34,102 nt of DNA, from positions 1-34,102 of the forward strand of contig DUUI01000039.1 of NCBI GenBank assembly GCA_012841625.1, read 5' to 3'. The notes beneath the pieces are model-generated. The model was not told where the DNA came from, did not search any database, and saw nothing but the letters and a program-made list of their open reading frames with translations. A program made the translations under genes and the position numbers. The stretch is from Erysipelothrix sp. (GTDB lineage: Bacteria; Bacillota_I; Bacilli_A; Erysipelotrichales; Erysipelotrichaceae). Of the stretch, positions 15,016 to 22,327 are shown in pieces (the stretch's first letter is position 1; each line of letters starts with the position of its first letter).

Positions 15016-15048
15016 AGTTACCTTCCTTTAATTATGCGTTGCTTAAAC

Positions 15049-20825: not shown

Positions 20826-21596
20826 ATGAGAAAGTTATTAGGATTAGCGCTATTAGCTTCTGTTTTATTATCAGGATGTACAATTAAAAGTGAAGAAGTG
20901 AATGATAAAGCAGTCGAAAAGATTGATGATGAAAAAGAATTTGTTTATGCAGAAATTATTGAAGATGGTCACTATGCTCCAGTTATAGAAATAGGGTATC
21001 CTTCATCTATTTTATTAGACCGAGTAGATAATCAAATTGAGAGGATAGTGTTAAATTTTGAGTCTCAAGATGCTGAATTAGTTCAAGCAAGATTAGATGA
21101 AACTAAAAACCAACAGTTAGAGTATCATGGGAAAGTAATTAGTACATTTATATTATATGATTTTGTTGAAACAGAGGACACAATTTCATTAATTGCATAT
21201 GCAAATAGATATAAACTCGATTCTGATGGATTTGTGGATAATATTTATACTTATGTTTTTGATAAAACAACTGGAAATCTATTAACTGATGAAGAAATCT
21301 TGGCTTTAGTAGAATTGGACATCGATCAAATTGTTAGACTAATGAAAGACATTCAATCAGCAAATGAAGATGAGAGTATGAAAGGTCGAATAGATTATCA
21401 AATCAGCCAGGAAAGCTGCAGCACAGATGAATCAATGTATGATATGTGTGAGTCGTTGGTTGCTAATAATCGTTTCTTTGTTACTGCACAGAAACATCTA
21501 GTTGTTGCTCTTGAAAAAACATGGATTAAAACAGATGTATTAGATCCTGAGGCTGTTTATTACACCTTGTTAGAGATAACTTCAGCCGATAGGTAG
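20826..21596 (+). CDS. Lipoprotein, DUF3298/RsiV-like
   Basis: A 256-residue protein with a lipoprotein signal peptide: MRKLLGLALLASVLLSGC, Cys18. It is exported and anchored to the outer membrane face. The mature part is acidic and mainly beta-stranded in appearance. Segments such as YTYVFDKTTGNLLTDEEILA and, near the end, RFFVTAQKHLVVALEKTW resemble the extracellular DUF3298 domain found in RsiV-type proteins, which lies after a conserved stretch on secretion of a beta-rich fold. I could not identify a specific function. Two cysteines in the C-terminal third (SQESCSTDESMYDMCES) may form a disulfide. GAGGAGG precedes the ATG closely. It stands alone after a long leader. Confidence 0.75.
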   Translation: MRKLLGLALLASVLLSGCTIKSEEVNDKAVEKIDDEKEFVYAEIIEDGHYAPVIEIGYPSSILLDRVDNQIERIVLNFESQDAELVQARLDETKNQQLEYHGKVISTFILYDFVETEDTISLIAYANRYKLDSDGFVDNIYTYVFDKTTGNLLTDEEILALVELDIDQIVRLMKDIQSANEDESMKGRIDYQISQESCSTDESMYDMCESLVANNRFFVTAQKHLVVALEKTWIKTDVLDPEAVYYTLLEITSADR

Positions 21597-21636: not shown

Positions 21637-21677
21637 TTCACATATTTTCACATAATGTATACACATTAATTTCACAC
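21637..21677 (+). promoter_or_regulatory. Repeated TTCACA boxes, probable response-regulator site
   Basis: TTCACATA occurs at 21637-21644 and again at 21647-21654, exactly ten bases apart, and TTCACAC appears at 21671-21677. Tandem TTxACA boxes one helical turn apart are the form of OmpR/PhoB-family operators such as PhoP boxes. They sit just upstream of a TATACT (21686-21691) that lacks a -35, the arrangement expected for an activated promoter. Confidence 0.4.
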
Positions 21678-21697
21678 TTGTTTTTTATACTATAGTC

Positions 21698-21787
21698 ACA
21701 ATAGAAATATTGAGTGGGGACTGTTCCCCAGACCTTCCTTCCTTGTAGTAATATAGAAAAAGAAACACCGCTCGAGGTGTTTTTTTG
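21698..21787 (+). ncRNA. Candidate structured small RNA
   Basis: About 90 bases lie between a -10 (TATACT, 21686-21691) and a terminator. From the predicted start, hairpin 1 is CAATA/TATTG closed by a GAAA tetraloop (21699-21712) and hairpin 2 is TGGGGA-CTGT-TCCCCA (21715-21730). A single-stranded pyrimidine stretch follows (ACCTTCCTTCCTT, 21732-21744), then a terminator hairpin. An exposed CCUUCC stretch is complementary to Shine-Dalgarno sequences, the usual target region of Gram-positive base-pairing small RNAs. No known RNA family was recognised. It could instead be the 3' end of the lipoprotein mRNA. Confidence 0.45.
21763..21787. terminator. Terminator (strongest in plus direction, also serves mnmM)
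   Basis: AAACACC (21763-21769), loop GCTCGA, GGTGTTT (21776-21782), with T continuing to 21786. Read on the minus strand the stem is followed by CTTTTTC, so it can also end mnmM transcripts, whose stop is at 21788. Confidence 0.75.
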
Positions 21788-22327
21788 TTACATCGCAATT
21801 CGCTTACAAATGAAAGAAATTGGTGAATTCTTGGTAGGGTAATGTAAGGTTTCTACTTCATATTGTTGTTTCTCTTTTTTATGATTAATCCATAATTTTA
21901 CAGCTTCTGTTTCCTGTGATCCACCTGGGTGTCCAGGATAACAAGTTATGATTAAATAGGAGTTAATCTTCAGTAGCTGATGAGCTTTTGAAAGACTAAT
22001 CAGTGTACTATCTTTAGTTGTTTTAATTTTTTTGTTACCACCTGGAAGATATCCTAAATTATAAATAATTAGATTAACATAAGGTTTAACATAATTATTA
22101 ATATTTTGATGGTCATCATGGATATAAGTGATATTATCAAAATCTTTGGTTAATTCCTTCGTTTTGTTAATAGCAACTTCTTGTATATCAATAGTGAAGA
22201 CATGTTTACTCTTTTGTGCTAGAAAATAAGTATCTCTTCCATTACCGGCCGTCATATCAATTGATAGCCAATCTGATTGAATTATTGATTCAAATTTTTC
22301 ATGAATTATTTCATTGTTGTTTTTCAT
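21788..22327 (-). CDS. mnmM: tRNA 5-aminomethyl(-2-thio)uridine methyltransferase MnmM (YtqB family)
   Basis: A 179-residue class I SAM-dependent methyltransferase of the former 'putative rRNA methylase' family, now known in B. subtilis as MnmM (YtqB). It methylates nm5(s2)U34 to mnm5(s2)U34 in tRNA anticodons. Motif I is SIDMTAGNGRDTYFLA and motif IV YNLGYLPGGNKKIKT, with CYPGHPGGSQETEAV characteristic of the family. Length matches relatives (about 190). Its ATG at 22327 lies inside the last codons of the upstream radical SAM gene (17-base overlap), with AAGGAG nine bases upstream, so the pair is translated together. Confidence 0.9.
   Translation of the reverse strand: MKNNNEIIHEKFESIIQSDWLSIDMTAGNGRDTYFLAQKSKHVFTIDIQEVAINKTKELTKDFDNITYIHDDHQNINNYVKPYVNLIIYNLGYLPGGNKKIKTTKDSTLISLSKAHQLLKINSYLIITCYPGHPGGSQETEAVKLWINHKKEKQQYEVETLHYPTKNSPISFICKRIAM

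Follow-up and report, generated by a model that had tools for sequence, protein, structure and literature searches.

The window, a 34,102-nucleotide stretch of Erysipelothrix sp. DNA (assembly GCA_012841625.1, contig DUUI01000039.1), contains a candidate small RNA gene of ∼90 nucleotides on the plus strand (21698-21787; 5′ end placed from the -10 position), lying between a lipoprotein gene (20826-21596, plus strand) that matches no Pfam family, and a convergent rRNA-methylase-like gene (21788-22327, minus strand; PF06962). Its components are a -10 hexamer, TATACT (21686-21691, plus strand), with an extended block, TATACTATAGTC, that is kept across the broad family described below; a first hairpin, CAATA-GAAA-TATTG, with a GAAA loop (arms at 21699-21703 and 21708-21712), whose helix covaries in that family; a second hairpin, TGGGGA-CTGT-TCCCCA, with six perfect pairs (21715-21720 and 21725-21730); an exposed CU-rich stretch, ACCTTCCTTCCTTGTAGTAA (21732-21751), which includes a putative target-binding motif, CTTCCTTCCTTGTAGTAA (21734-21751); and an intrinsic terminator, GAAACACC-GCTCGA-GGTGTTTTTTT, with a T run (about 21759-21787), all on the plus strand. 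The promoter (recognized by sequence only) and the terminator belong to the RNA itself, clear of the flanking open reading frames. These are the elements, at the same positions, from which the original prediction had proposed a regulatory small RNA with an anti-Shine-Dalgarno (SD) stretch and of no recognizable family; a scan of the window against Rfam, at both gathering and relaxed thresholds, likewise returned nothing credible.

The region folds more stably than expected, with a z-score of -3.1 for positions 21690-21800 against dinucleotide shuffles; z-scores range from -2.7 to -3.9 for the RNA as it stands in the window and in the three closest relatives (L046, which is genome G001; L033, which is genome G009; and L038, all metagenome-assembled genomes labeled Erysipelothrix sp.; the window genome is G000). 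Across these four genomes the motif CTTCCTTCCTTGTAGTAA is identical at 18 of 18 positions and predicted to be largely single-stranded, with a mean unpaired probability of 0.60-0.77 for the whole motif and 0.71-0.94 for TTCCTTCC. The hairpins behave differently: the arms of hairpin 2 read TGGGGA/TCCCCA, GTTGGAG/CTCCAAC, GATTC/GAATC and GATTC/GAATC, and those of the terminator also differ, with pairing retained in both. Conservation of the hairpins, on which the original prediction depended, is thus seen in the relatives as changed sequence with preserved pairing, and in the broad family as covariation of the helices. A conserved structure presenting an exposed, invariant pairing region is characteristic of trans-acting small RNAs. 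Among the sequences searched, exact copies of the motif are confined to this group: apart from the four genomes above, a 14-mer (TTCCTTCCTTGTAG) in 295 genomes, and a 17-mer in GTDB contigs, gave only chance matches in unrelated contexts. A 16-mer scan of the viral_contigs collection matched 30 stretches.

The terminator hairpin is bidirectional and also reads as the terminator of the convergent gene at 21788-22327, so that the sequence might be taken for no more than the 3′ end of the lipoprotein or methylase gene, with no independent RNA. Comparison with the relatives makes this very improbable. In all three the RNA lies downstream of the suf genes, as it does in the window, and in L046 and L038 it also lies just before methylase and radical-SAM genes; in these two genomes the lipoprotein gene is absent from between suf and the methylase, and the RNA and its promoter remain, which separates the RNA from the lipoprotein gene as far as comparative evidence goes. 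Promoter, upstream boxes and motif are all conserved, and homologous RNAs occur at unrelated loci and in tandem. A coding function for the same bases is scarcely credible: a short frame ending in ...LPSL (TTG start at 21710, TAG stop at 21746) can be read through in the window and L033, but it has no conserved start or SD sequence. No other frame is open, and in two of the four genomes (L046 and L038) this one is interrupted, even though both retain the motif at all 18 positions, which defeats the peptide reading. The segment 21698-21787 is therefore almost certainly a free-standing regulatory small RNA gene, judging from its own promoter and terminator, its covarying hairpins and its invariant exposed motif.

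No -35 hexamer was found upstream of the RNA; TTCACA-type repeats (21637-21677) are arrayed in its place. Two of these, TTCACATATTTTCACATAAT (21637-21656, plus strand), include the octamer TTTTCACA (21645-21652) and are conserved in L046, L033 and L038; two further box-like repeats on the same strand, TACACATT (21660-21667) and TTTCACAC (21670-21677), lie about one helical turn apart over the -35 region and are partly conserved, column by column, in the relatives. A promoter in which such an array stands in for the -35 element appears to be built as in activator-dependent promoters. The octamer TTTTCACA is the published canonical box of CssR (PMC6749698), and serves as operator in the Bacillus subtilis CssRS regulon, which comprises htrA, htrB and cssRS itself and so combines control of htrA with autoregulation (PMC6749698). 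The arrangement described here resembles that regulon in that the same operator adjoins the RNA promoter and recurs at htrA and cssR in relatives. The box was found in 44 of 96 relatives, with ∼67 matches as against 6-7 for a reversed control. In the form TTTCACATA, allowing at most one mismatch, it precedes 10 of 24 htrA genes, as against 4 of 161 other genes of the same loci (p = 1e-7), and 5 of 19 cssR genes; it was found upstream of none of 10 pstS genes. In a second family, several genomes have the box in front of a response-regulator gene. Since neither the htrA nor the cssR gene of the window genome itself is preceded by the box, the link to CssR rests on the relatives.

The window genome does encode a CssR-type regulator, with a kinase-like open reading frame downstream. 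One clear orthologue is present in each of 20 genomes, at 58-79% identity (the query genome excluded), the next paralogue reaching at most ∼40%. The orthologue in the window genome is 50% identical to B. subtilis CssR, 38% to WalR and 34% to PhoP, values that serve as a lead only.

Our first idea was that a genuine family RNA is regulated by a different member of the OmpR type, PhoP/PhoR in particular. PhoP boxes are direct repeats ∼11 bp apart, and TTCACA is compatible with the loose B. subtilis PhoP consensus; as the best predicted target common to two species is pstS, the pairing would then belong to phosphate control. This idea was dropped, and we now consider it rather improbable, given that the pst promoter of the window genome (L129, 2290-2390) carries TTAACA repeats ∼11 bp apart, of PhoP type and unlike the TTCACA array of the RNA, and that the box is found at htrA and cssR instead of pstS. 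A box that is canonical for CssR and lies at these genes in relatives makes CssRS the likely switch, and CssR probably controls the RNA. As a separate observation, a perfect TTCACATATTTTCACATAAT box lies directly 5′ of a membrane-protein-like open reading frame in another genome (L138; G055, contig C3, 84929); this gene may also belong to the regulon.

Starting from promoter matches, we found RNAs in numerous other genera that share the same boxes, a TATACTATAGTCAGCAAG start, two hairpins and a terminator, and that carry pyrimidine motifs (UUUCCCCUC, UCUCCCUUUC, UAUCCCCUUA) in a loop, in the single strand and in the terminator loop; none of these loci was recognized by Rfam. A covariance model (R1) was built from an alignment of 11 sequences from other genera, excluding the window. 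In this alignment 96% of cells are paired, and covariation is 0.233, compared with 0.101 for shuffled alignments (0 of 500 as high) and far lower values for slid controls. The model matches the window at 21637-21763 (E = 8.8e-6 in its genome, and 6.8e-7 in another R1 search), and also recovers L046, L033, L038 and a second copy in the window genome. At E≤0.01 it matches 197 of 295 Erysipelotrichales genomes, in 52 of 79 genera, a count that is an estimate, as the E-values are rough. Tandem arrays occur, with three copies in a row in G007 (L130, 1090-1711) and four matches in G043 (contig C2, 183430-184535; contig C7, 4893-5046). The RNA thus almost certainly belongs to a widespread, previously undescribed family of the Erysipelotrichales, which count gut commensals as well as Erysipelothrix among their members; the literature searched contained no description of a small RNA of this kind from the order.

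The second copy in the window genome is canonical; it lies between hprK and lgt (contig C56, L265, 15156-15301, minus strand), with UUCCCCCUAA in its loop and CUUUCCCCUUA in its single strand. Just downstream of it on the same locus, a single open frame (L265, 13237-14736, minus strand) fuses LGT, the prolipoprotein diacylglyceryl transferase, to a HAD-type hydrolase domain. The window copy has the promoter and 5′ hairpin of the family, but a different motif, one long conserved element replacing the repeated UCCC sites, and is therefore a divergent member. Regulator boxes, RNA family and second genomic copy are additions to the original prediction.

The closest known system is found in Listeria monocytogenes, where the LhrC1-5 RNAs (Rfam RF00616; ∼110 nucleotides) are multicopy and governed by the two-component system LisRK, which has htrA as a further target (PMC4132741, PMC8079631, PMC11236296). 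Their CU-rich sites are placed in a loop, in the single strand and in the terminator loop, and they repress the surface and substrate-binding proteins OppA, TcsA and LapB through the SD region (PMC4132741, PMC8079631, PMC11236296). Canonical Erysipelotrichales members have tandem copies and may share the three CU sites: two or three UCCC/CU-rich sites are present in many canonical relatives and two in the C56 copy, and the window copy has one such stretch. The window RNA differs in its regulator box, which is of CssR type, and in relying on a single 18-nucleotide CUUCCUUCC plus UUGUAGUAA motif, where LhrC has repeated UCCC. The RF00616 model found no match in the window or in the family loci; it also gave none in 395 genomes of the class, a search in which the positive control was silent as well, so that absence elsewhere in the class is not proven. 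Because there is no Rfam match and the motif of the window copy is different, we do not file the RNA as LhrC; it would work like the LhrC/LisRK system, and membership by sequence is unsupported.

For target prediction, genes of the window genome were ranked by how strongly the motif is predicted to pair with positions -40 to +20 of each gene, as duplex energies that leave mRNA structure aside; genes were called on ∼687 kb, and the scan came to 972 genes, about three quarters of the genome. Lipoproteins made up 10 of the 33-34 top-5% pairings in the first half of the window genome, against a background of 32 of 669 (hypergeometric p = 9e-7). As this pattern had been noticed by eye before testing, 303 unseen genes (25%) were used as a pre-planned hold-out, in which 2 of the 15 top pairings were lipoproteins, a result in the right direction that is not significant (p = 0.13). 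Over all 972 genes, lipoproteins account for 11 of the 49 in the top 5%, where 2.3 are expected (p = 5e-6). The G001 genome, which overlaps the window genome in ancestry, gave 4 of 10-11 top pairings against a background of 13 of 206 (p = 0.002-0.003). Among the control queries, shuffled motifs (60 mononucleotide and 60 dinucleotide) retrieved a mean of 1.4-1.7 lipoproteins and a maximum of 6, the ribosomal anti-SD sequence retrieved 1 among its top pairings, and the sister RNA (the C56 copy) retrieved 0 of 49 with either of its motifs and showed no bias.

A scan of lipoprotein leaders for enriched 6-mers, made without reference to the RNA, points the same way. ACTACA ranked first of 2136 (five of its eight occurrences), and other complements of the motif followed closely (AGGAAG 5th, CAAGGA 7th, ACAAGG 12th); as a group, the motif 6-mers rank high in lipoprotein leaders (rank test p = 1.5e-7), with p-values that are somewhat generous because two related genomes were pooled. 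Since ACTACA is not a ribosome site, its enrichment supports real pairing, and it would account for the conservation of UUGUAGUAA alongside that of CUUCCUUCC. GGAAGG alone, tried as a lipoprotein signal, was weak and was absent in G001.

These data bear on the possibility that the RNA is real but acts broadly on purine-rich SD sequences, the lipoprotein bias being an accident of sampling. Many non-lipoprotein genes do pair well with the motif, as this would predict, and the hold-out taken by itself is compatible with it; set against this, the ACTACA signal is independent of the SD sequence, the G001 replicate points toward lipoproteins, and shuffled motifs, ribosomal anti-SD sequence and sister RNA all lack the bias. 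On balance broad action is unlikely, if worth keeping in mind. Preferential action on lipoprotein mRNAs is the reading we follow here, and the predicted targets include, besides pstS, genes for PnrA/Bmp-like, PhnD-like, sugar-, OpuAC- and SBP_bac_8-type binding lipoproteins.

The pairing that the original prediction had singled out, with the leader of prsA, is real as a match: nine bases, AAGGAAGGT, lie in the prsA ribosome site (minus strand, within 15018-15028). It is unexceptional as a target, since prsA ranks only 141 of 972 by pairing energy, a middling position that led us to set it aside as the main target. Lipoprotein mRNAs, pstS among them, are likely better candidates.

Taken together, these observations suggest a CssRS-activated, trans-acting small RNA that blocks translation, chiefly of lipoproteins, by pairing of its motif with ribosome sites, a reading to which we assign a probability of about 60%. 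At the level of sequence it is supported by the RNA gene and its conservation, the family, the box array, the exposed invariant motif and the bias of predicted targets; from these we infer that CssR binds the promoter, that secretion stress induces the RNA and that the targets are repressed. Misfolded secreted proteins would trip the CssRS alarm and activate CssR, and phosphorylated CssR would bind the TTTTCACA array upstream of the -35-less promoter, allowing the RNA to be made. The RNA would then base-pair in trans, through its invariant single-stranded CUUCCUUCCUUGUAGUAA, with the ribosome-binding regions of mRNAs, the CUUCCUUCC half pairing with AAGGAAGG/AGGAGG SD sequences and the UGUAGU half recognizing ACUACA elements that immediately precede them. 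With the ribosome site covered, translation would be blocked, chiefly that of lipoproteins such as the substrate-binding PstS, PnrA/Bmp-like and PhnD-like proteins, and the secretion and lipoprotein pathway would carry less traffic while HtrA clears the damage.

In enterobacteria, the sigma-E small RNAs RybB, MicA and MicL link envelope stress to the silencing of abundant envelope proteins. Those RNAs and their regulator are different, and they are Hfq-dependent and directed at outer-membrane proteins, whereas the predicted targets here are Gram-positive lipoproteins. An exposed pyrimidine motif that pairs with SD sequences is also typical of the C-rich/UCCC small RNAs of Gram-positive bacteria (RsaE, FsrA and similar), from which the window RNA is set apart by its lack of an Rfam match and by the stimulus proposed. 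A broader proposal, on which we would offer slightly less than even odds, is that the family forms an order-wide RNA arm of the CssRS response, a counterpart of the sigma-E RNAs, in which one copy has become specialized as a lipoprotein silencer with a two-part site (ACUACA plus SD). The literature searched, mostly papers available outside subscription, contained no report of a small RNA in a CssRS regulon. If the proposal is true, a Gram-positive secretion-stress system has an RNA branch that prevents further lipoproteins from being made as HtrA disposes of damaged protein, and the parallel with LisRK, LhrC and htrA in Listeria would look like a general design. The covariance model, the named regulator and the ranked targets are all directly testable.

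The leader of cssR itself, CACAAGGAGGG (L248, 15052-15095), is among the best partners of the RNA in the window genome and is not in G001, so that feedback of the RNA on cssR is only suggested. In the second family, cssR-like promoters (L164, L165, L167, L168, L178 and L179, near position 1500) carry the box TTCACATATTATCACAAAAT and, between it and the -10 element, a long perfect inverted repeat, ATATTGCCAT...ATGGCAATAT.
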